A DNA stretch of 20,593 nt, from the IMG/VR virus record IMGVR_UViG_3300028829_004853, positions 1 to 20,593 of that record. The stretch is one strand, 5' to 3'. The notes beneath the pieces were generated by a model, which was given only the letters and a program-made list of their open reading frames with translations, was not told the origin of the DNA and did no database searches. Below are positions 1-13,711 of the stretch, one piece after another; the stretch's first letter is position 1; each line of letters opens with the position of its first letter. The translations under genes and the position numbers were made by a program. The stretch comes from a virus.

Positions 1-1764
1 TCAGGTGAGGGCGTCATCTGTGCCCTGGATGACTGCTTCGAGCCCTCATTCGGCAACCGCTACTGCATCGACCACGAATGGCTCAGTGGTGGTGATGACT
101 GTGAAGAGGTGGTTGATGAGGATGAGCCAGAAGACATCGAGGAAGTTTACCGGCAGGCCAACGAGCGAGCAGAAGAAAAGAAGCTGACCCGGATTCAGGA
201 GCTGGAGCAGCAGCGCGATGAAGCAGCAGGCCGAACCGAGATGCCAGTCATGCCAGTGTGCGGTCAGAATGGCTGCAGTGAGCTGGTTGAGAACATCGGC
301 AACTGGTGCCAGGCCTGCAACCAGGCAGCTGCTGACCAGAGGGAACATGACCAGAAGATCCGCGACATGAACGCAATCTGCAGGCAGCCGGAATGCGAGA
401 ACCTGTCGGGCAAGGTCGGCAAGTATTGTGAAGGCTGTGCAGAGAAGGCAGCTGAGCAGTTCCGTGAGCAGAAGGCCACGCTGGGGCGTGAGGTTGCTGA
501 GCGTCGAGAAGAACGGAAACGTGAATATGCAAAGCGAATCAGCAGGCCAGGCCCAATCAGCCAGAAGGTCGAGCATGATGGCATCTGCCCTGAATGCGGC
601 GGTGAGCTGCTGCAGACTGGCGAGGTGACAGCGCGATGCGAGAACGATCACGTTTTCATGGTGCCTGCTGGCGAGCGTGACAGGCTGGAAGCTGAGAAGC
701 AAGGTGAGCTGAGTGATGAGATCGGGGAAGTTGAGGGTGATCGGTGTAATCGAGGTGGATGCCCCGGTGTGCTGGAACTGGAAGCCCTGGAAGGCTGCAC
801 CTGCTTCAAGAATCCGCCCTGCACTGCCTGCATGAGCAGGCAGATTGAATGCCCGGTTTGTCGCTGGTCAGCTGGTGATGAGCCAGAGGATCCACTCGGC
901 GAGCATTACAGCAAAGCAATCCAGCAGATTGCAGAGGAAGTTGACAAGGGAGTGCTGGCGGCAGTTCCGGTTCATACTGGCACCGCTCAGCAGCGAGCTG
1001 ATGCTGTGCTGAATGATCAGAGGAGATGCATTGCCAGAGCAGCATTGAAGGAGATTGAGGAATTGAGGGGCTGCGAGGTCTACATTCCGAACTACGAGCA
1101 GGGCGGCAAATGCATCAACTGCGGCCAGGTCAACTGCCCTGCAGGGGTCGGTGACTTCCAGCCAGAAGATGCTGAGCAGCAGAAGACTGAAGCAGCCGCC
1201 AGGGCAAGGTTCAGCCCTGGTGGTTTGGTGCCGCAGTCTGATGGGCCGATGGTAAAACTGAGCCCGGTCAATGGTGACCTGCAACTCACGAAGGAACTGC
1301 TGGATGAGGTTGACAAGCTGCCGACCATTCTCGAAGGGCTGGAACAGGTCGAGCAGCTGAAACGGGACAGCACTGCTGATCAGCAGAAGCCGATCCGGGA
1401 GCTGCATGCCAGAGTTGCCACGGCACGAAGTGAATCGTATCTGTGCATGAGTCATCAGGAAGCAGGTGACGCACAGCAGCGGATTGAAGATGCTGAGGCG
1501 GAACTGGCAGAAGCATTACAGAGTAAAACTGAACCACTCTGCAGCTGCGAGGAACCTTACGAGGTGCGGGATTGTGGCCGCTCCCGATGGGAATGTGGCA
1601 GGTGCAGGCACCGGCTAAATCCCGAGAAGCCATGCACCTGCCTGAAGGGTGCAGCTGAGCATGCCCTCGACTGTGATTCCCGGCAGTGGCGATGCCTGAA
1701 GTGTGATCGACCTTGCAACGATGAGCTGCAGCAGGATTACAATGCACAGGGCGGAACATCATGA
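1..1764 (+). CDS. Cysteine-rich multi-zinc-motif protein, function unknown (5' end outside window)
   Basis: The frame is open from base 1, so the start lies upstream; the first in-frame ATG (109) would cut off a matching motif. Counting residue 1 as bases 1-3, three copies of C-x4-C-x9/10-C-x2-[C/H] lie at about residues 7-26, 87-107 and 127-147, resembling the small zinc-binding stub of phage HNH proteins. A ribbon-like C-x2-C...C-x3-H lies at 196-217, a dense cluster of eight Cys at 249-287, a C-x2-C-x4-C at 371-379, and two tandem copies of C-x-C-x8/10-D-C-x4-W-x-C-x2-C at about 514-572. Charged, probably helical linkers rich in Glu, Gln and Arg separate them. There is no signal peptide or membrane segment in the visible part. 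The gene directly precedes a terminator and the scaffold-capsid unit, where portal or head-morphogenesis genes usually lie, but it resembles none of these. Coding is certain; function is not known. Confidence 0.8.
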   Translation, partial: SGEGVICALDDCFEPSFGNRYCIDHEWLSGGDDCEEVVDEDEPEDIEEVYRQANERAEEKKLTRIQELEQQRDEAAGRTEMPVMPVCGQNGCSELVENIGNWCQACNQAAADQREHDQKIRDMNAICRQPECENLSGKVGKYCEGCAEKAAEQFREQKATLGREVAERREERKREYAKRISRPGPISQKVEHDGICPECGGELLQTGEVTARCENDHVFMVPAGERDRLEAEKQGELSDEIGEVEGDRCNRGGCPGVLELEALEGCTCFKNPPCTACMSRQIECPVCRWSAGDEPEDPLGEHYSKAIQQIAEEVDKGVLAAVPVHTGTAQQRADAVLNDQRRCIARAALKEIEELRGCEVYIPNYEQGGKCINCGQVNCPAGVGDFQPEDAEQQKTEAAARARFSPGGLVPQSDGPMVKLSPVNGDLQLTKELLDEVDKLPTILEGLEQVEQLKRDSTADQQKPIRELHARVATARSESYLCMSHQEAGDAQQRIEDAEAELAEALQSKTEPLCSCEEPYEVRDCGRSRWECGRCRHRLNPEKPCTCLKGAAEHALDCDSRQWRCLKCDRPCNDELQQDYNAQGGTS

Positions 1765-1841
1765 CGCAGCAGCTCTGGTGCTGAGCATCGTGACTGGTCG
1801 GCATTGAGCCAGTGGCCAGTTCATGAGCCAGCTGCGTCATG
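1760..1841 (+). repeat. Perfect 11-bp inverted repeat across the stop codon
   Basis: CATGACGCAGC at 1760-1770 is the exact reverse complement of GCTGCGTCATG at 1831-1841. The left arm contains the TGA stop of the cysteine-rich gene. The 60 bases between can form further pairs, for example GCTC 1772-1775 with GAGC 1825-1828 and ACTGG 1793-1797 with CCAGT 1816-1820. The element ends four bases before the terminator stem, so a transcript would carry a closed structured 3' end followed by a termination hairpin. Function is unknown: it could stabilise the mRNA 3' end or be a small RNA. Confidence 0.5.
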
Positions 1842-1844
1842 GGG

Positions 1845-1870
1845 AAGGCCATCCGAAAGGGTGGCCTTTT
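1845..1870 (+). terminator. Intrinsic terminator after the cysteine-rich gene
   Basis: A 10-bp stem with one G-U pair (AAGGCCATCC 1845-1854 with GGGTGGCCTT 1859-1868) is closed by a GAAA tetraloop and runs into TTTT at 1867-1870. This is a good Rho-independent terminator and separates the upstream transcript from the scaffold-capsid unit. The U-tract is short, so some read-through is possible. Confidence 0.8.
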
Positions 1871-1911
1871 CGCTGCGCGGTCATCCAGATTGATTCAATA
1901 AAATCCCCGAA

Positions 1912-2055: not shown

Positions 2056-2125
2056 CTCGATTCTTTGTGAGAATCCTGATGATCCTGAAGCATGCGACTC
2101 CGTGGTACTCTCGAATTCTTTGTGA
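2056..2125 (+). repeat. Short direct repeat flanking the scaffold gene start
   Basis: CTCGATTCTTTGTGA at 2056-2070 recurs as CTCGAATTCTTTGTGA at 2110-2125, identical apart from one extra A. The copies are 55 bases apart, not a multiple of three, so they fall in different reading frames. This may be a local duplication that altered the 5' end of the scaffold gene, and it makes the start uncertain. Confidence 0.5.
2059..2075 (+). promoter_or_regulatory. Hairpin just before the proposed scaffold start
   Basis: GATTCT 2059-2064 pairs perfectly with AGAATC 2070-2075 around a 5-base loop TTGTG, ending three bases before ATG 2079. The only weak ribosome-binding-like bases (GAGAA) lie in the 3' arm, so the hairpin could limit initiation. 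The stem is only moderately stable. Confidence 0.3.
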
Positions 2126-2882
2126 TGAGCAAGGTGAGGGAGGCGAAGGCGGCGGCGGCTCAGAAGGTGACCTGAAACCTGATCCAGCAATGGAGCAGCT
2201 GAAGGGTGAAGCCAACGCACTCAGAACTAAGTCAAAGCAACTTCTCGATGAGAAGAAAGCATCTGACAAGGCTCTGAAGTCTCTGCAGGAATCCATTGAC
2301 AAGCTGGGCGGGACTGAAGGAATCGCAAAGCTGGCAGAATTTCAGGCACGGCTGCAGGGTGACGAACTCGGCCAACTGCTTGCAGATGGCAAGACAGATG
2401 AATGGTTCGACAAACGCTCTGAAGCCATGCGAGCGGATCATGGCAACCAGATTGAGGCACTCAACACGAAGCTGGCTGAAGCAGAAGCCACCGGAAACGG
2501 CTACCGCGACCAGCTGGCGAACCTGCACATCACTCAGCAGGGCAGTGAGGCTGCAATCAAGGCAGGAGTTTTACCCGAGCATCTCGATGACGTGGCACTC
2601 TGGATCCAGCACGATTTTGTTTGGTCTGAAGAACACAACCAGCCCGTCGTGATGGATTCAGAAAACGCGCCGGTTTATGGCAAAGATGGCACGACCCCGA
2701 TGGGGATTGCTGAGTGGCTGGAAGGCAAGAAGGAAAGCAAACGGCAGTGGTGGCCTGACTCGAAGGGTTCAGGCGCAACAGGCCAATCAGGCGGCGGCAA
2801 AGGTGGCAGCCCGACCAGTTTTGAAGGGCTGCAGCCTGCTGAGTTTCAGAAGCGTTTCAAAGACAAGTTCGGCAAGAAGTGA
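2079..2882 (+). CDS. Capsid scaffolding protein
   Basis: A 267-aa protein read as the internal scaffold that guides coat assembly and is absent from the mature head. After a short hydrophobic start comes a Gly/Glu-rich linker (residues ~17-30), then a long charged helical region that looks like a coiled coil (~37-150), a Gly/Ser/Lys-rich linker (~230-248), and a basic C-terminal helix ending EFQKRFKDKFGKK. Such basic C-terminal helices contact the coat protein in P22-type scaffolds. Position directly before the capsid gene fits. The start is uncertain: ATG 2079 gives residues MILKHATPWY, but ribosome-binding sequence is weak. GTG 1977 is open in frame but would translate the structured leader; ATG 2190 is a shorter option without a good binding site. 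Function rests on composition and position, not on a catalytic motif. Confidence 0.72.
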   Translation: MILKHATPWYSRILCDEQGEGGEGGGGSEGDLKPDPAMEQLKGEANALRTKSKQLLDEKKASDKALKSLQESIDKLGGTEGIAKLAEFQARLQGDELGQLLADGKTDEWFDKRSEAMRADHGNQIEALNTKLAEAEATGNGYRDQLANLHITQQGSEAAIKAGVLPEHLDDVALWIQHDFVWSEEHNQPVVMDSENAPVYGKDGTTPMGIAEWLEGKKESKRQWWPDSKGSGATGQSGGGKGGSPTSFEGLQPAEFQKRFKDKFGKK

Positions 2883-2931: not shown

Positions 2932-4101
2932 ATGTCAGGCACCAGACTGATCACCCCGAGCGTTGTGGGCAACATTGCCCTGATGCTCCTGCAGAACAAA
3001 CTGATCGCGACTCAGACATTCAGCCGCGTTCATCAGGAAGAATTCAACGGCGCTCGCAAGATTGGCGACCGGGTTAAGGTTCGCCGTCGACAAGCAGGAA
3101 CAGTGATTCGAACAGGTCCGTACGCGACTGGTGCGAATACCTTCCAGAGCCCGCCAGAAACCAGCATCGACGTCACGCTGCAATACAATCATCGGATCCC
3201 GATTGAGATTGAGGCAGGTGACTTTGACCTCGATCTCGATGACTTCGCGTCACAGATCATGGAACCGCAGATGGTTGCCATCGCGGAGGATGTTGACCTC
3301 GCTGCTCTGCTGGCCTTCAAGGAAATCCCGCAGATCGGTGGTATTTCAAGACTGGCACCAACGACTCTGCCAAACAGTGCAGCTGACCTGCAGGAAACTG
3401 AGCAGGATCTCTTCGACCAGAAGGTGCCCGGCCAGGGGCTGGTTCACTGTATCACCAGTGAGCTGCACACCGGGCTGGTTTCGTCTGGCACGATCAGCTC
3501 AGCTGAGCAGCGCGGCGATGGTGGTTCATCACTTGAAAATGCTCGGGTCGGTCGAGTGGCCAATATGGACCACGTCCGAACGCAGGGCATTGACAGCTCA
3601 ACCTTCACGTCAGGCACAACTCTGGTCGCGACGACTGATGGTGCTCATGCTGCTGGTGCCACGACCATCACCTATGACACCGCGACTGGTGCCACCACGA
3701 CCCTGAAGAAATTCGACGTCCTCAACATCCCTGGATACGGTGATGTGGTGGTTGCTGCTGATGCAGTGGCAGCCGGTTCTGCAGGGACGTTCACGATCTT
3801 CGAGCCACTGCGTGAAGCAGTTGCTGATAATGTCATCATGACGAAATACGATGGCTCTGCTGCCACTCGTCAGCTGCATGGTGCCGCTTATCACCCTGAT
3901 GCGTTCAGCTTCGTCACAGTGCCAGGTGAGGCACCACTCGGCGGGGTTGAATCTGTTGTCATCCAGGATGGTGGCCTCGGTATCCGGGTCATCTGGGGCT
4001 ACGACATTGGGAACAACCGCAACCAGATGACGATCGACCTGTACTCAGGTTGCACGCTGGTTGATGGTCGCCTGGCCGTTCAGACGGTCAAGGATATCTA
4101 A
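2932..4101 (+). CDS. Major capsid (coat) protein, P22 coat-like
   Basis: A 389-aa protein with the character of the P22 coat family (HK97 fold): an N-terminal helix (LITPSVVGNIALMLLQNKLI), then residues ~40-60 with NGARKIGDRVKVRRRQAGTV, where these proteins have F..A.K.GDTV.V..P, followed by a segment on residues that tolerate substitution (VTLQYNHRIPIEIEAGDFDLDLDD) and a helix with MVAIAEDVD. Residues ~215-310 are Thr/Ala-rich and beta-like, possibly equivalent to the inserted I-domain of P22 coat. The C-terminal part returns to the core with GIRVIWGYDIGNNRNQMTIDLYSG. P22 coat is about 430 aa, so length is compatible. ATG 2932 has a strong TGAGGAG 8 bases upstream. The gene follows scaffold by 49 bases and ends at a terminator, as expected for the most abundant product. 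Confidence 0.88.
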   Translation: MSGTRLITPSVVGNIALMLLQNKLIATQTFSRVHQEEFNGARKIGDRVKVRRRQAGTVIRTGPYATGANTFQSPPETSIDVTLQYNHRIPIEIEAGDFDLDLDDFASQIMEPQMVAIAEDVDLAALLAFKEIPQIGGISRLAPTTLPNSAADLQETEQDLFDQKVPGQGLVHCITSELHTGLVSSGTISSAEQRGDGGSSLENARVGRVANMDHVRTQGIDSSTFTSGTTLVATTDGAHAAGATTITYDTATGATTTLKKFDVLNIPGYGDVVVAADAVAAGSAGTFTIFEPLREAVADNVIMTKYDGSAATRQLHGAAYHPDAFSFVTVPGEAPLGGVESVVIQDGGLGIRVIWGYDIGNNRNQMTIDLYSGCTLVDGRLAVQTVKDI

Positions 4102-6129: not shown

Positions 6130-7704
6130 ATGGCTGATGATGCAACAGAAATGTCAACCAATAACACCGGTCTGCGGGTTCGCCGAGAGTCGTCATTCAA
6201 GACGCTCGGCTCTGGTGACTGGAAGCCTCGGGAACCAAACGAGTACGGAGACTTCGGGGCACAGCTGACCAACACGCCACGGAAGCCAATCAGGATCGAC
6301 CGCCAGAACAGGAAGGGCGTGCTGACTGACCTTGAAGCGCCGGGCAGCTGGACGGAGGACATGACCTATTCGAGTTTTCTCGACATGGTGGATCTCTACC
6401 TGTTTGCCAACTATCGCGACAAGGGCACCTTCGGTGCTGACTCAATCGCGCTGATCACCATCAGTGGCATCACGGCAATTGATGACACATACACGGTTGC
6501 CAGTGGTGGCGCATCATGTGATGCAGATGACATCGTGTTCGGCTCTGGATTCACGAATGCTGGCAACAATGGTCTGCACGTCGTGGCCAGCAGCTCTGCC
6601 ACCACGGTGGTCGTCGGCGCAGCTCCGGGGCTGACCGATGAAGCATCACCGCCGAGCACTGCAACACTGACTCGGGTGGGGCATGAGTTTGCTGCAGGTG
6701 ACCTGTCAGTCACTCAGCCTGGCATCGGGGTGGCTTATCCCTACATCACTAGTGCAGGCGGCAAGGATCTCACTGAGCTGGACATCGTGCCTGGCGAGTG
6801 GGTCTACATTGGCGGTGATGCTGCACTCAACAAGTGGGCAACAGCTGCGAACAATGGCTATGCCCGAGTTCGGAGCGTCACCAGCACGGTCATGACCTTT
6901 GACAAGACGCAGAACACGATGGTCACTGAAGCTGGCGGGGTTCTGGAAATCAGGATCTTCCTGCCTCGGGTCTGCAAGAACGAGAGCACTGCAGCCACGA
7001 TCATCAAGAAGTATCTGCAGATTGAACGGTCACTCGGTTCACCTGACTCTGGCTCACCTGGCAACGTGCAGGGCGAGTACATTGTGGGCGGCTCAGCAGA
7101 TCAGCTGACCATCGGTCTGCCGACGAGCGAGATCATCACCACCGAGTACTCGTTCCTCGGTGCGGACCATGAGACCAATGACTCAGCAACTGGCCTGAAG
7201 TCTGGAACACGTCCAGCCCTGCAGGCGAATGATGGTTACAACTCGGTCAACCATGTGCGGCGGTTGTCTCTGCGGGTCAACAGCCTGACTGATGCCAACC
7301 CGACGAGCCTGTTTACATACCTGAAGGAAGTATCCGTCAAGGTTGAGAACAACATCTCGTTAAACAAAGCCATCGGGGTTCTCGGTGGTGCCTCAACGAA
7401 TGCCGGTTCCATTGATGTGGAGCTGGAAGCTGAAGCCTATTTCGCCACCGTGGCTGCACTGGCTGCCAAACGTGCCAACGATGACGTGTCATTTGACATG
7501 AGCATTGCTGATCAGAACCAGGGCATCACGGTTGACCTGCCACTGCTCGCATTGGGTGATGGCCTGCCCGAGTTGGAAACCAATGAGCCGATCATGCTCA
7601 AGATGACCAACCCGGCAGCATCAGGTGAGGATGTCGTCTCGACTCTGAACCACACGGTGCTGATTTGTTTCTTCGATTACCTTCCGGACGCTGCTGAAGC
7701 ATAA
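6130..7704 (+). CDS. Major tail tube protein, with inserted beta domains
   Basis: A 524-aa protein with ATG 6130 behind GAAGGGG. The N-terminus (LRVRRESSFKTL, then RQNRKGVLTDLEAPGSW and the helix SSFLDMVDLYLFANY) has the arrangement of the phage tail tube family with R.V.ES.FGT, ...D.....V....G........Y..FD.LLE. The C-terminal half returns to tube-like segments (YSFLGADHE, VRRLSLRVNSL, SVKVENNISLNKAIGVLGGAS, SIDVELEAEAYF). Residues ~105-275 look inserted and contain two similar small beta units, each with a N-N-G centre (GFTNAGNNGLHVVASS and WATAANNGYARVRSV). Lambda gpV is about half this length, so these units probably project from the tube surface. The gene lies between tail terminator and chaperones, where the tube gene belongs, and is followed by a strong hairpin. 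Confidence 0.82.
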   Translation: MADDATEMSTNNTGLRVRRESSFKTLGSGDWKPREPNEYGDFGAQLTNTPRKPIRIDRQNRKGVLTDLEAPGSWTEDMTYSSFLDMVDLYLFANYRDKGTFGADSIALITISGITAIDDTYTVASGGASCDADDIVFGSGFTNAGNNGLHVVASSSATTVVVGAAPGLTDEASPPSTATLTRVGHEFAAGDLSVTQPGIGVAYPYITSAGGKDLTELDIVPGEWVYIGGDAALNKWATAANNGYARVRSVTSTVMTFDKTQNTMVTEAGGVLEIRIFLPRVCKNESTAATIIKKYLQIERSLGSPDSGSPGNVQGEYIVGGSADQLTIGLPTSEIITTEYSFLGADHETNDSATGLKSGTRPALQANDGYNSVNHVRRLSLRVNSLTDANPTSLFTYLKEVSVKVENNISLNKAIGVLGGASTNAGSIDVELEAEAYFATVAALAAKRANDDVSFDMSIADQNQGITVDLPLLALGDGLPELETNEPIMLKMTNPAASGEDVVSTLNHTVLICFFDYLPDAAEA

Positions 7705-7733
7705 GCTGAGCGGCGCCCATTTCATTGATTGCC

Positions 7734-7759
7734 GGGCTGCAGGAATTGACCTGCAGCTC
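7734..7759 (+). promoter_or_regulatory. Strong hairpin between tail tube and chaperone genes
   Basis: GCTGCAGG 7736-7743 pairs perfectly with CCTGCAGC 7750-7757 around AATTGA; two outer pairs (7734-7735 with 7758-7759, one G-U) extend it to 10 bp. There is no T-run, so it is not a classical terminator. It may stabilise the 3' end of the abundant tube message or reduce transcription into the chaperone genes. It ends 19 bases before ATG 7779. Confidence 0.5.
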
Positions 7760-7778
7760 AATGACCAGGAGAAGACTG

Positions 7779-8225
7779 ATGAGCGGTTTGGAAGCATTTG
7801 CGTCTGACAAGAACATTGAGACCGAAGGCAGCTGGTGTGATTACGGCACGTTCCGTGTCCTGCTGGCTCGGGCTGGTGGCTCGAATCAGAAATACATCAA
7901 GGCGCTGCAGAAGGCTGCAAAGCAGCTGGGCGTGCACCAGAACAACATCGAGGCCAATCGAGCAGTCGAGCGTGCCCTGATGGCTGACTACCTGATTCTC
8001 GGGTGGCAGACGAAGGTTGATGGTGAGTGGCTGGAAGGCATCGAGCACTCGGCATCAGTCAGCCATCTGGAAGCTGGTGCGAATGGCCTGATTCCCAACA
8101 CTCGGGAGAATTTCAGGGCAGTGCTGGAAGCGCTGAATGATCTGTCACTGGCATTGCAGAACTTCGCCAACGTCCACACCAACTACCAAAACGAAGACAA
8201 TGAGGAACTGGCGGGAAACTCGTAG
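7779..8225 (+). CDS. Tail assembly chaperone, short form (gpG-like)
   Basis: A 148-aa mainly helical protein containing GSWCDYGTFRVLLARAGGSNQKYIKAL near residues 17-43, typical of phage tail chaperones that coat the tape measure before tube polymerisation. ATG 7779 is chosen because AGGAG lies 8 bases upstream; ATG 7761 and earlier starts lie in or next to a hairpin and lack a binding site. Near its end the reading GCG GGA AAC TCG TAG contains an in-frame slippery heptamer, and the -1 frame continues as a second domain, as in lambda G/T. Location before the tape measure gene supports this. The short form is expected to be the main product, with a minority of ribosomes shifting. Confidence 0.85.
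   Translation: MSGLEAFASDKNIETEGSWCDYGTFRVLLARAGGSNQKYIKALQKAAKQLGVHQNNIEANRAVERALMADYLILGWQTKVDGEWLEGIEHSASVSHLEAGANGLIPNTRENFRAVLEALNDLSLALQNFANVHTNYQNEDNEELAGNS
8213..8219 (+). promoter_or_regulatory. Programmed -1 frameshift site G GGA AAC
   Basis: The heptamer GGGAAAC lies in the reading register X XXY YYZ (G | GGA | AAC), four codons before the end of the gpG-like frame. After slipping back one base, translation continues CTC GTA GAG and stays open to 8611. Short stems can be drawn downstream (for example GATTC 8250-8254 with GAATC 8265-8269), but no convincing stimulatory structure is seen; lambda also manages without a strong one. Confidence 0.85.
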
Positions 8226-8611
8226 AGGTTCTGGCATTCAGCCTGCAGGATTCGCAGATTGATGAATCAGCAAGACGGCAGGCAGAACAAAACGGCATCG
8301 AGCTGCCGGGGCATTTGCTCGATGAGCCAGAGCTGAGACTGGACGGCCATTTTTACTACCACGCATTCTGGCAACTCACCTCGGATCGTCCGGTTGGATT
8401 TGGACCGGCACCAATCCCCAGCAGTGCGATCCGGGTGTTTGCCAGAGACTACGAGCTCAATGATGAGGAATCTGCTGACCTGGAATTCATGATTCGAAGG
8501 ATGGATCAGAAGTATCTGGAGCTGCAAACTGAGTTTGAGAAGCATGACGCGAAGCGCAGGGCAGCGAAGCAGAAGCAGGAGAATCAACCACGGAGCAGAG
8601 GGCGTGCATAA
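8219..8611 (+). CDS. Tail assembly chaperone extension, made as -1 fusion (gpT part of gpGT)
   Basis: The -1 frame from 8219 to TAA 8611 codes for 130 residues joined to residue 147 of the short chaperone, giving a 277-aa fusion. It has no good start of its own; an ATG-like start near 8315 would remove part of the domain. Motifs: LDGHFYYHAFWQLTSDRPVG, PIPSSAIRVFARDYELNDEE and FMIRRMDQKYLEL, ending in a Lys/Gln/Arg-rich tail. The 'W.L..R..G.....PIP..AI..+A..+.+.D......I..MD..YL' arrangement is that of the T-type domain (DUF1799-like) that recruits tail tube subunits. The stop overlaps the next start as TAATG. Confidence 0.83.
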   Translation, partial: LVEVLAFSLQDSQIDESARRQAEQNGIELPGHLLDEPELRLDGHFYYHAFWQLTSDRPVGFGPAPIPSSAIRVFARDYELNDEESADLEFMIRRMDQKYLELQTEFEKHDAKRRAAKQKQENQPRSRGRA

Positions 8612-9072
8612 TGTCATTCCGAGACTTCGAGAAACGCATCAGGAAGCGTGCTAACCTCGTCGGGAAGAATGCAACCAAAGGCGTCAGGGCTGTTGCGATC
8701 GCGGTTGACAATCAGGTCACATTCTCCACGCCAGTGGACACCGGCAGAGCCAGAGCGAACTGGATTGCCTCAATCAATCGTCCCTCGAATGTGATCAACA
8801 GGGAACCACTCGCCGGGCCCGCATCAGCCGGCCCGGCAGTGGCTGAGGCGCTGCAGGTCATCAAGTCATTCAAGGAATCGGATGACGCGATCTACATCAG
8901 CAACTCGGTCAGCTACATCAACGAGCTGAACGATGGCAGCTCTGCTCAAGCGCCACGGAACTTCGTGCAGAAGGCCATCATCCGTGGCATCAAGGTGGCA
9001 AAGAAGATCAAGCTGCTCGACCTGAAGAATGACAACTCTGGCGGAATCACTGACCCTGGCCTGATTCGATAG
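8611..9072 (+). CDS. HK97-gp10-like head-tail or tail completion protein
   Basis: A 153-aa basic protein with FEKRIRKRANLVGKNATKGVRAVAIAV (N-terminal helices), the family signature STPVDTGRARANW at about residues 39-51, and ISNSVSYINELNDGSSAQAPRNFVQKAI at about 108-135. 'PVDTG.LR.S.' followed by 'Y....E.G......P..F...A' is the HK97 gp10 / minor tail protein Z type pattern. The family acts at the head-tail or tail-end junction. Its usual place is among the connector genes before the tube gene; here it lies between the chaperones and the tape measure. It overlaps the chaperone stop by one base and ends seven bases before the tape measure start. Confidence 0.68.
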   Translation: MSFRDFEKRIRKRANLVGKNATKGVRAVAIAVDNQVTFSTPVDTGRARANWIASINRPSNVINREPLAGPASAGPAVAEALQVIKSFKESDDAIYISNSVSYINELNDGSSAQAPRNFVQKAIIRGIKVAKKIKLLDLKNDNSGGITDPGLIR

Positions 9073-9079
9073 GAATGAC

Positions 9080-12000
9080 ATGCCACAGGAACGACTCGAC
9101 ATCGTCATCAGCCAGAAGGGTGCCAAGACCGTCAGAAAAGACATCAACGGCATCGGCAAGGAAGCTGAGAAGGGTGCAAAGAGCACTGGCCTGCTAAAGA
9201 AAGCACTCGGCGGACTCGGCGTCGCGCTGGCAGTCAGGGAAGTGACCCGGCTGGCTGATTCTTACACGACCATGCAGAACAGGCTGAAGACCGTCACGAA
9301 GTCACAGCAGCAGCTGAATGATGCCACGAAGGAAGTATTCAAGATCGCCAACCGGGCACGGCAGGGCGTTGCTGGCACGGTTGAATTCTATGCTCGGCTG
9401 TCAGGTGCAGCCAAAGAACTCGGCAAGTCACAGTCAGAGCTACTGGCCATCACCGAGACCGTCACGAAGGCGGTCGCGCTGTCTGGAGCAACCACAGCAG
9501 AATCAGCAGGAGCATTGCGGCAGCTCAGTCAGGGGCTCGGTTCTGGTACTCTGCGAGGGCAGGAATTGAATTCCGTGCTGGAGCAGCTGCCGATCATCGC
9601 GGACATCATTGCTGACAGTCTGGGAGTCGCCAGAGGTGAGCTGCGTGGCCTCGCTGAAGATGGGAAGCTGACGGCTGACGTGGTGGTCACTGCGCTGGAA
9701 GGTGCAGCAGGCAGGATTGAGACTGCATTCGGTCAATCAGTGCCGACGATCGCTCAGTCATTTGATGTGCTGCGAAACAACCTGACGCAGTTCGTGGGTG
9801 AGCTGGATCAGGCAACTGGCGTGTCACGGTTTTTCAGCAATGCCATCATCAGCATTGCAGACAACCTCAACACGATCATCCCGTTGCTGGCAGCAGTGGC
9901 AGCCATCACGGCTTTCAACAAGCTGCGGCTGGAAGCTGTGCTTTTCGTGGGAGCACTCAAGAACGGCATCACGGTTGTGAAGTCACTGACGACTGCCCTG
10001 TTCGGGTTAAGGGCAGCACAAGCAGCAACAGTTGGATCGAGTGCGGTTGCAGGTGGGGCAACATCACTGAGCCTGTTCAATGCATTTTTCGCTGGTGGTG
10101 GGGCAGCTGCAGGCACCACCAGCGCTGCAGGTGCGGGCCTGTCATCAATCGCCACAGGTGCTGCTGCTGCTGTTGGTCCGACAGTTGCCATTGCAGCAGC
10201 TCTGGCAGCAGTCGGCGCCGCGATCATTTACACATCGAGGGAGGCTGAGACATACAGTGACGTGCTGATCGAGGTTGAGGATGCAACGACTGGCCTGACT
10301 GACTCATCAGAGGGGCTGGCTGGCAGCACTGAGAAGGTCGGCGATGCATTCAAGGCAACTGAGTCGAACCTCGAAAATCACATCAGACTGCTGCTGGCTG
10401 CTCAGAAGGCACAGGCCGGGCTGCTGGATGAGATCATCCCGCAAGTTGCACGACGGGGCCGAGGTGGCCTGTTCAATCTCGCTCAGGGTGGTCTGGAGGA
10501 AGTGGCGAAGGAAGAACTGCCGGGCATCGTTGCACAGCTCAAGAAGCTGCAGAATGCTGAGCAGCAGATCGGGAATGCCAAAGGTGCAGAGAACATTCAG
10601 CGACTGGCTGAGACGATCAAGCAGGCTGGTGACTCAATCCGTGATGCAGTGCCATCATCATCGAAAAACTCGGTTGACCAGGTGCTCAAGACTTACACGA
10701 ACCTGCAGGACCGGATTGCCGGTGTGCTGGAGCTGAACCGAAAGGTGAATACCTTCGAAGTGCCAGAGGAACAGCTGGCAGGCAGTTCTCAGCAGAAGCT
10801 GGCTGCAGAGATCAACGCGACCGAGAAGGCGTATGGCGATCTGATTGATGCAAACTTCAAGGGTGAGATTGCCACCAAAGACTTCGCACAGGCGCAAGGG
10901 TTTCTGCTGGAGAAACTTGACAAGCTGCGCGGCGGCGGGAATGCCACGCTGGAAGAATTGAAGAGATACAACGAGGCGCTTAAGAAATTCAACGGGGATG
11001 AGGAAGCTGCCGAGCTGTCACTGGCTGGAGTGACTGACCGGAAGATCCGAATGATCCAGGAGCAGGAAACGATCAAGGCTGGAATTCTGCAGGTGCAGAA
11101 GGATCAGGTGATTGCAGAGCGGGAAGCGGCCCGGGAAGCAGAGCGACTGAAGCAGATCGATGAGCAGAGGCTCAAGACGATCAACAACCTGCTGGAAGCG
11201 AAACGGAAGGAAGTGCAGCTTTTCGGCCAGACTGCCAACCAGCGAGAGGTCAGTTTTCTGAAGGATCAAGGGGCAGACGACACGAAGGTTGCCGAGCTGG
11301 AATCACTGCAGAGGCAGATCGGTACCCTGCAGCAGTTCCAGACGCTCGTTGCCAGTGCGTCGGCATTGTTTCAGGAGTATGCTGCATTTCAGCAGTCAGC
11401 TGAGCAGGTGCAGACTGCCACGGCAGATGCTGTCGAGCAGGTGCAGACGACAGCTCAGCAGAACCTCGCTGCAGGTGCTCTGGAAATCTCAGAAGCATCA
11501 CAGCAGCTGTTTCAGCAGATCGGCACATTCCTCAACACGGCGACTGACCTGGTGCTGACTGACACGCAGGCAGCCTTCACGCTAGGTGCTCAGACGATCG
11601 GCACAGCTACCGCTCAGGCATTCATCGGGGCATTTCAGGCAGGTCTCGGCGGGGCTGTCAGTGGCTTTCTGAGCGGCCTGACGACAGGTGGAGCAAACAC
11701 GGCAGGGCAGGGAGGTCAGGTGGATCCAGCCATTCAGGCGAAACTTCGTGCCCTGCAGGAGCTGCGAGCTGCGAACGAGAGGCTGCTGGAGTCGCTCAAC
11801 AAGGTCGGGCCGACCAGTGCAAGGAACTTCAGCCAGGGTTCTGCAGCTGCTCAGCAGTTCGGTCAGAACACCACCAACATCGGCACGCAAATCAACAACG
11901 TGTTTCAGAATGCATTCGGTGGCCTTGAATCAGCCCTGACTCAGTTCGTGACAACCGGGAAGCTCGATTTCAAATCACTCATCAACAGCATCATTGCAGA

Positions 12001-12469
12001 CCTTGCCCGGATGGTGGTGCAGATGCTGATCATCAAGCCGCTGATGGGGTTCTTCGGGGGCATCTTCGGCGGTTTCTTCGGATTCAGTCAGGGTGGTTTC
12101 GTGGGTGGCAACCTGCCTGGATTCGCCACAGGTGGCATCGTGGGCGGGTTCGGTGGCAGCACTTCAGACAACCAGCTGGCCAGACTCAGCCCTGGTGAGT
12201 TCGTGATGAATGCGAGCTCAACAAAGAAGAACAGAGCAGCTCTGGAATACACGAACCAAACAGGCAAGATGCCAATGGTTTCGGGTGGCGGTGGTGGCTC
12301 GATGGTGTTTGCGCCGACGATCATTGTGAATCAGGAAGGTGGCCAGCAGGGTGATGGTGAATCGACTGGAATGGACATCGAAGCTACCGTTCGACGACTA
12401 TGGACGGAAATGGCTGTGAAGTCACAGCGGTCCGGGGCAGTGTTTGGAAGCAACAGAACAGGCGGCTGA
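9080..12469 (+). CDS. Tail tape measure protein
   Basis: A 1129-aa protein preceded by TAGGA. Residues ~50-225 match the tape-measure N-terminal domain: an LKTVTKSQQQLNDATKEVFK segment, then QGVAGTVEFYARLSGAAKEL, AVALSGATTAESAGALRQLS, GTLRGQELNSVLEQLP and a GELRGLAEDGKLTADVV segment. Hydrophobic stretches that could cross a membrane lie at about residues 255-290, 310-390 and 975-1010. Residues ~490-780 are long charged helices with coiled-coil character. The C-terminus has the usual GGFVGG...GFATGGIVGG, LARLSPGEFVMNASSTKKN segment. It sets tail length and probably enters the host envelope during DNA delivery. Using the known ratio of about 0.15 nm per residue, the tail would be about 170 nm. 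Position after the chaperones and before gpM is the lambda order. Confidence 0.95.
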   Translation: MPQERLDIVISQKGAKTVRKDINGIGKEAEKGAKSTGLLKKALGGLGVALAVREVTRLADSYTTMQNRLKTVTKSQQQLNDATKEVFKIANRARQGVAGTVEFYARLSGAAKELGKSQSELLAITETVTKAVALSGATTAESAGALRQLSQGLGSGTLRGQELNSVLEQLPIIADIIADSLGVARGELRGLAEDGKLTADVVVTALEGAAGRIETAFGQSVPTIAQSFDVLRNNLTQFVGELDQATGVSRFFSNAIISIADNLNTIIPLLAAVAAITAFNKLRLEAVLFVGALKNGITVVKSLTTALFGLRAAQAATVGSSAVAGGATSLSLFNAFFAGGGAAAGTTSAAGAGLSSIATGAAAAVGPTVAIAAALAAVGAAIIYTSREAETYSDVLIEVEDATTGLTDSSEGLAGSTEKVGDAFKATESNLENHIRLLLAAQKAQAGLLDEIIPQVARRGRGGLFNLAQGGLEEVAKEELPGIVAQLKKLQNAEQQIGNAKGAENIQRLAETIKQAGDSIRDAVPSSSKNSVDQVLKTYTNLQDRIAGVLELNRKVNTFEVPEEQLAGSSQQKLAAEINATEKAYGDLIDANFKGEIATKDFAQAQGFLLEKLDKLRGGGNATLEELKRYNEALKKFNGDEEAAELSLAGVTDRKIRMIQEQETIKAGILQVQKDQVIAEREAAREAERLKQIDEQRLKTINNLLEAKRKEVQLFGQTANQREVSFLKDQGADDTKVAELESLQRQIGTLQQFQTLVASASALFQEYAAFQQSAEQVQTATADAVEQVQTTAQQNLAAGALEISEASQQLFQQIGTFLNTATDLVLTDTQAAFTLGAQTIGTATAQAFIGAFQAGLGGAVSGFLSGLTTGGANTAGQGGQVDPAIQAKLRALQELRAANERLLESLNKVGPTSARNFSQGSAAAQQFGQNTTNIGTQINNVFQNAFGGLESALTQFVTTGKLDFKSLINSIIADLARMVVQMLIIKPLMGFFGGIFGGFFGFSQGGFVGGNLPGFATGGIVGGFGGSTSDNQLARLSPGEFVMNASSTKKNRAALEYTNQTGKMPMVSGGGGGSMVFAPTIIVNQEGGQQGDGESTGMDIEATVRRLWTEMAVKSQRSGAVFGSNRTGG

Positions 12470-12470
12470 C

Positions 12471-12668
12471 ATGAGCAGAGAAGTGATTACATTCGTGCTG
12501 CTGTTCTGGGTTCTGCCTGGCCTGCTGCTGGAATGTTTCGCCGAGTATCTGGTCTGGAAGTTTCAAAACCGTCGCCTCGGCTGGATGGAATCGCTCAAGG
12601 TCGGCATCTTCTGGCCGTTTGCTGCTGGTTGGATGCTGTTCATCGCAATCAGAACATTGAGGCAATGA
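12471..12668 (+). CDS. Small two-helix membrane protein, function unknown
   Basis: A 65-aa protein starting at ATG 12471, one base after the tape measure stop, and ending one base before the gpM start. It has two hydrophobic segments, EVITFVLLFWVLPGLLLECF (residues ~4-23) and VGIFWPFAAGWMLFIAI (residues ~44-60), joined by a basic-aromatic loop (VWKFQNRRLGWMES). The loop and tail charges favour both ends on one side with the loop in the cytoplasm. Lambda has no gene here. Small membrane proteins beside tape measure genes in other phages include superinfection-exclusion factors and holin-like proteins, but nothing in the sequence decides between these. The tight spacing argues for a real, translationally coupled gene. 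Confidence 0.7.
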   Translation: MSREVITFVLLFWVLPGLLLECFAEYLVWKFQNRRLGWMESLKVGIFWPFAAGWMLFIAIRTLRQ

Positions 12669-12669
12669 G

Positions 12670-13026
12670 ATGGCAGCGCCGACATTCACATACGATGCCT
12701 GGCAGGGGTCAGGTGGCCTGAAGGGCAAATCGAAGGTCCGCAAGGTGAAGCTGGGAGATGCATACGAGCAGCGTTCACAGATGGGGCTCGTTCCCAAAAC
12801 GGACGAATACAGCTTCCGCCGGCCAGACGACAGCAGGACCAACATTGACGCGATGATTGCATTCCTGGATGCACTCGGGCCAGAGGTTCGACCGTTCTAC
12901 TGGACGCGACCATTCGGCACATCCGAACTCTGGATTCAGGAAGGCGACTATGCGGTCACAGATGAGAAGGCCAGCAGCGCGACGTTCTCAGTGAAGTTCG
13001 TTCGATTCCACGGAGCAGAAGAATGA
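12670..13026 (+). CDS. Minor tail protein M (gpM-like)
   Basis: A 118-aa protein with FTYDAWQGSGG, KVRKVKLGDAYEQRSQMGL (residues ~22-40), then AMIAFLDALGPEVRPFYWTRPFG (~61-83), and ATFSVKFVRF near the end. The 'V....FGDGY.Q....G.N' followed by 'I..FL...G....F.W..P' and a terminal 'tl...F.' strand is the gpM / phage minor tail family signature. Lambda gpM is about 109 aa, so the length is normal. It belongs to the tail tip that joins the tape measure and the L-K-I-J hub. Its stop overlaps the next start (ATGA at 13023). Confidence 0.85.
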   Translation: MAAPTFTYDAWQGSGGLKGKSKVRKVKLGDAYEQRSQMGLVPKTDEYSFRRPDDSRTNIDAMIAFLDALGPEVRPFYWTRPFGTSELWIQEGDYAVTDEKASSATFSVKFVRFHGAEE

Positions 13027-13711
13027 CCGAGCTGACTGAAGAACAGCAGAAGCTGAGCAGTGACCCTGTCGTTGAGATGTTCGACTTCGATGCCACCGGC
13101 CTGGGTGGTGGGATCTATCGGTTCTATTCCGGGGCACCATCAGACGCAACTCTGGTCTGGCGTGGCAACCTGTACGTGCCGATTCCAGTGATGGCTGAAG
13201 GTTGGGAACAGACAGGCAAGGGCAGTCTGCCGACCCCGATATTCAAGATCAGCAACGTCGCTGGAAAACCTACGAGCGGTTCCTGGATGGTGAGGTCGAT
13301 GCAGACCCTGATAAGCACTTCTCGAAAGAAATCTATCAGGTTGAGCGCAAGGTCAACCAGAATGCTGACCTGGTCGAATTTGAGCTGAGTGCTGCCATCG
13401 ACCAGGATGGCAGGAAGCTGCCAGCCCGTCAGGTTGTGCGTGGCTTCTGTGCTCAGCGGTATCGGACCCATGTGGCAGGCACGGTTGACGAGTTCAACTA
13501 TGGCAACGTCACCTGTCCGTGGGCTGGCTCTGATGATGTTGAGGGCGGCACTGAGGGGCCGTACTTCACAGCAGCTGGCGTGGGCACTGGTCAGGCTTCA
13601 GAGGATGCCTGCGGAAAGAAGCTGACTGACTGCAAGATCCGTTTCGCCGCCATCGGGCTGCCGTTACCGTATTGGGGATTCCCCGCCGTCGATCGTATCC
13701 GACGGCAGTAG
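13023..13711 (+). pseudogene. Minor tail protein L (gpL-like), broken by internal deletion and frame change
   Basis: The first part (ATG 13023, overlapping gpM) reads as gpL: VVEMFDFDATGLGGGIYRFY, LVWRGNLYVPIPVMAEGWEQ, LPTPIFKISNV. At 13257 the matching frame changes by -1 and continues with RRWKTYERFLDGEVDADPD, YQVERKVNQNADLVEFELSA and AIDQDGRKLPARQVV to TAG 13711. Lambda gpL has about 20 residues between the SN of 'TLTVSNL' and the RR of 'RRKVYARFLD'; here they are missing, the two parts overlapping over bases 13250-13261. Without the shift the first frame ends at 13388 with a nonsense tail. The four cysteines expected to hold the iron-sulfur cluster of gpL (in GFC, VTCPW, DAC, TDC) are present in the second part. 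A recent deletion, an assembly error or recoding are all possible; AAAA at 13265-13268 is only a weak slip site. Confidence 0.8.

Follow-up and report, generated by a model that had tools for sequence, protein, structure and literature searches.

MuF-like minor head proteins (phrog_241, PF04233; MuF toxins), HNH endonucleases and the uncharacterised phrog_22771 proteins are the closest described phage systems to the gene considered here. In the nearest relatives of this phage, the genes of the first adjoin that of the scaffold; phage HNH enzymes have zinc ribbons with C-x4-C and C-x2-[C/H] pairs at their termini (Xu and Gupta 2013, cited in PMC4422536); and phrog_22771 proteins, such as those of Pseudomonas phage JBD44 and Caulobacter phages Sansa and C1, stand alone or form the N-terminus of a small protein. 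Analysis of a 20,593-nucleotide stretch of viral DNA (hereafter the window) identifies an open reading frame (ORF) at its 5' end that shares the scaffold-adjoining position of the MuF-like genes, weakly resembles the N-terminal zinc-ribbon profile positions of phrog_144 HNH endonucleases in two of its fingers, and contains a phrog_22771-like segment (E 5e-15). That segment is accompanied by seven or more other probable zinc-binding modules, in a protein of 587 amino acids or longer. The best explanation, which we hold tentatively, is that the ORF encodes the C-terminal portion of a zinc-module mosaic, the product of an accessory gene at the junction of the minor head and scaffold genes and acting as a multivalent binder.

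The frame of the ORF runs off the start of the window, so that its visible length is a minimum and represents the C-terminal part of the protein. The ORF is coding, because its GC content by codon position is similar to that of the MCP and TMP genes, its RSCU correlates with that of the other phage genes (0.86; 0.85 for the coat protein gene), and tblastn homology to it falls in frame +1. Its cysteine groups are those described in the first-pass annotation: three copies of C-x4-C-x9/10-C-x2-[C/H] in frame +1, a ribbon, an eight-cysteine cluster, a C-x2-C-x4-C motif and two C-x-C...D-C-x4-W-x-C-x2-C units. Neither the count of three fingers nor the paired C-terminal pattern was reached in any of 20,000 composition-preserving shuffles of the ORF, and its eight CxxC motifs were reached in 51 of 20,000; C-x4-C pairs alone and CxC alone occur in ordinary numbers by the same comparison. 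The internal duplication proposed earlier is clear for fingers 2 and 3 (alignment z 9.2) and marginal (z 3.2) for the C-terminal units, which share a common pattern and have no family match in profile searches. A single-sequence AlphaFold model of the full-length ORF was uninformative (pLDDT 46).

Table. Coordinates of the features of the ORF, of the region downstream of it and of the promoter-like sequence in related contigs.
Feature	Position	Strand	Details
Cysteine-rich multi-module ORF	1..1764	+	open at 5' end; 587 aa; 40 Cys
Finger 1, C-x4-C-x9-C-x2-H	19..75	+	aa 7-25
Finger 2, C-x4-C-x10-C-x2-C	259..318	+	aa 87-106; phrog_144 HNH-type, E 0.0018 alone
Finger 3, C-x4-C-x10-C-x2-C	379..438	+	aa 127-146; duplicate of finger 2; phrog_144 E 0.00098
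Zinc-ribbon-like C-x2-C-x13-C-x3-H	586..651	+	aa 196-217; just weak generic profile matches
Eight-Cys module, phrog_22771 homologue	715..900	+	aa 239-300; Cys 249-287
C-x2-C-x4-C	1111..1137	+	aa 371-379; Cys 358 possibly belongs too
C-terminal unit 1, C-x-C...DC-x4-W-x-C-x2-C	1540..1605	+	aa 514-535; no family match
C-terminal unit 2, C-x-C...DC-x4-W-x-C-x2-C	1633..1716	+	aa 545-572; motif aa 545-568
Structured RNA element	1758..1843	+	outer stem of ~11-12 bp closing a multi-branched fold; z -3.96; overlaps ORF stop
Predicted intrinsic terminator hairpin	1842..1871	+	13 bp, GAAA loop; z -4.81
Head scaffolding protein	2079..2882	+	phrog_206 E 8.6e-26
Major capsid protein, P22-coat type	2932..4101	+	PF11651 E 2e-13; phrog_283
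Promoter-like TTGAGTTATTT...TATAGT/TATATT	L340:3556, L341:9004, L343:8970, L344:835, L345:3555		

The eight-cysteine module matches phrog_22771 in profile searches (E 4.8e-15), with a pairwise identity of 47.9% in a tblastn match (E 4e-9) and identities of about 31-60% to single relatives, and it contains the family's pattern of eight cysteines with C-x-G, C-x-C and PPC. Its relatives occupy 80 IMG/VR loci, mostly as proteins of approximately 60-150 amino acids with the module near the N-terminus, whereas this small standalone form is not seen here, the module being embedded in the much longer ORF. In phage Sansa, the gene of the small protein adjoins those of a DNA methyltransferase and a primase. 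Seven of the eight cysteines are invariant among 58 aligned module sequences, and the eighth is mostly kept. The module, the only one modelled singly, gave a confident metal-free AlphaFold structure (pLDDT 84), whose closest fold among viral structures belongs to another phage protein from the phrog_22771 family; a PDB fold search with the same model returned nothing significant, and the best match there, HK446 Rip1 (E 2.4), had no sequence support and was not used. Many phrog_22771 proteins (loci L258-L337) also share a conserved C-terminal domain ending in GTFGGRFE-F--G-FKYIAYTD.

Searches with the whole protein found no full-length or close relative in phages, plasmids, viral contigs of IMG/VR or GTDB genomes. 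In agreement with the earlier remark that no phage head or packaging protein of this design is known, no portal, minor head or HNH profile of Pfam, NCBIfam or PHROGs matched over the full length of the ORF; PADLOC defence families did not match it, and 247 loci gathered through its neighbours (Ad1, scaffold and coat protein) contain no comparable gene. A weak match at the portal of BcepSauron (E 0.8) falls on the strand opposite to the gene annotated there and was therefore set aside. The description of the protein as unrecognised holds for the assembly as a whole, but not for the eight-cysteine module, which is phrog_22771, and not entirely for fingers 2 and 3, which are weakly phrog_144-like; thus, the parts are already known and it is their arrangement that is new. 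Large arrays of zinc modules appear to be rare in phage head regions, since none of the 5,307 ORFs from the loci gathered by the time of the count had even two such fingers.

The surroundings of the ORF were compared with those in five syntenic contigs (L340, L341, L343, L344 and L345), recovered through their tail tube and coat proteins, which represent the nearest relatives, with coat proteins only 33-39% identical to that of the window phage. Where visible, their gene order is portal (DUF4055), TerS, MuF-like minor head protein, scaffold, coat protein and Ad1; in L341, the portal is preceded by a large terminase. In all five, a gap of 131-137 bp separates the end of the MuF-like gene from the scaffold gene; the gap contains a conserved promoter-like sequence (TTGAGTTATTT...TATAGT/TATATT) that is absent from the window, and none of the five has a cysteine-rich gene at this junction. 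More distant phages have unrelated genes there: one annotated as pilin in PseuP_222, a 58-amino-acid ORF in Klebsiella ST11-VIM1phi8.2, and genes for endolysin and PhoH in Nanhaivirus. Because the relatives have the end of their MuF-like gene where the window has the ORF, the latter is either an extra gene or the C-terminus of the MuF-like gene; the upstream gene order lies beyond the end of the contig, and so we infer the insertion site and stand-alone status from the relatives. The ORF at the position of the large terminase in L343 (2992-5586) encodes 864 amino acids, compared with 524 in L341, possibly through an insertion, for example of an intein.

Directly 3' of the ORF are a structured RNA element and a terminator-like hairpin, which when folded together (1758-1875) give a z of -6.31. 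Over 28 nt the hairpin is 92.9% identical (E 0.09) to a site labelled 'terminator' in several RB49-like phage records, and it is missing from the hits of a simple terminator pattern scan; in the intergenic region no tRNA was detected and no Rfam family passed its threshold. Based on these two structures, the transcript of the ORF is predicted to end, probably, ahead of the scaffold gene. The RNA of positions 1758-1871 may represent a phage RNA, or a structure that protects the 3' end. The genes that follow encode the scaffold (phrog_206), the P22-type coat protein, the head-tail adaptor Ad1, head closure, tail terminator and tail tube proteins, and then chaperones, tape measure and central fibre J. 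The longest scaffold ORF starts at GTG 1977, and comparison with the relatives makes ATG 2079, or a start near it, likelier. The first-pass placement of the ORF in a head gene cluster is borne out in that scaffold and coat genes adjoin it, but is qualified by the RNA element and predicted terminator in between and by the absence of any cysteine-rich gene from that junction in all five contigs.

The position directly before the scaffold gene and the open 5' end are also consistent with the ORF being a C-terminal extension of a MuF-like minor head protein: each of the five close relatives has the MuF-like gene immediately 5' of the scaffold, and eight of the 122 MuF-like proteins in the gathered loci have C-terminal extensions of 175-507 amino acids. 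However, all eight long extensions contain 0-1 cysteines, against 40 in the ORF; no extension occurs in any of the five close relatives; and the window has no match to PF04233 or phrog_241, although the expected place of a MuF domain is beyond the end of the contig. We regard a MuF extension, the chief alternative, as possible but doubtful. Were it correct, packaging of the portal would also take in the zinc array, which might bind the end of the DNA or accompany the genome at delivery. The fullest form of this reading, a MuF-type minor head protein whose C-terminus bears eight or more zinc modules and which is encapsidated and either binds the DNA end or enters the cell along with the genome, we consider unlikely; a virion protein of this type would represent a new kind of minor head protein extension. 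Because the portals of relatives with P22-type order are poor in cysteine, a C-terminal extension of the portal is disfavoured. A MuF-like protein in another locus (L058:1937-4057) has a long C-terminal extension with a weak, below-cutoff match to a metallopeptidase family, as in described MuF toxins.

Rearrangement of the upstream gene order would place the ORF last in an unrelated module, early or accessory, that simply abuts the head operon. The RNA element and hairpin that divide the ORF from the scaffold gene accord with such a boundary, as do the location of phrog_22771 proteins of other phages in early or replication regions and the non-head genes that directly precede the scaffold gene in Nanhaivirus; from the scaffold onwards, however, gene order is that of the closest relatives, so a break exactly between ORF and scaffold is less likely, and we judge a rearrangement improbable. 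The weak match of fingers 2 and 3 to phrog_144 (E 0.001-0.002 each), together with the terminal ribbons described for phage HNH enzymes, might point to a homing or packaging HNH endonuclease with an amplified zinc-ribbon part; this is very improbable, given that the match is confined to N-terminal positions of phrog_144 and that the visible 587 amino acids of the ORF, the upstream part being beyond the contig end, contain no HNH catalytic domain by Pfam, NCBIfam or PHROGs. The ORF also differs from these enzymes in having three copies with charged linkers. A use of the cysteines in metal storage or disulfide cross-linking, instead of in folded zinc modules, would suit their high content (6.8% of the translation), but has little chance of being correct in view of the zinc-finger-spaced groups in excess of shuffled expectation and the confident fold of the eight-cysteine module, with its seven invariant cysteines across diverse phages.

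In the preferred explanation, a zinc-module mosaic, small phage zinc modules would have been duplicated and joined to give a protein composed of HNH-type ribbons, a generic ribbon, the phrog_22771 module and the C-terminal tandem pair, with charged segments linking them. Its gene would be an accessory, non-core gene between those of the minor head protein and the scaffold, closing the upstream transcription unit at its 3' end with the structured RNA and terminator; the unrelated genes at this junction in other phages accord with such a place. That it stands alone is presumed, as is the timing of its expression. The Cys/His set of each module would most likely hold zinc, and in the infected cell the array may be a multivalent binder, with nucleic acid as the most likely partner and proteins as the alternative. 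If this is true, the gene illustrates how small uncharacterised phage zinc proteins join into larger ones, and offers a handle on the widespread but unstudied phrog_22771 module.

No prophage relative was found by coat protein. Another IMG/VR contig (L339), which stops short of the ORF, is 99.95% identical over 6484 bp to positions 6775-13258 of the window, indicating that the phage has been assembled more than once.
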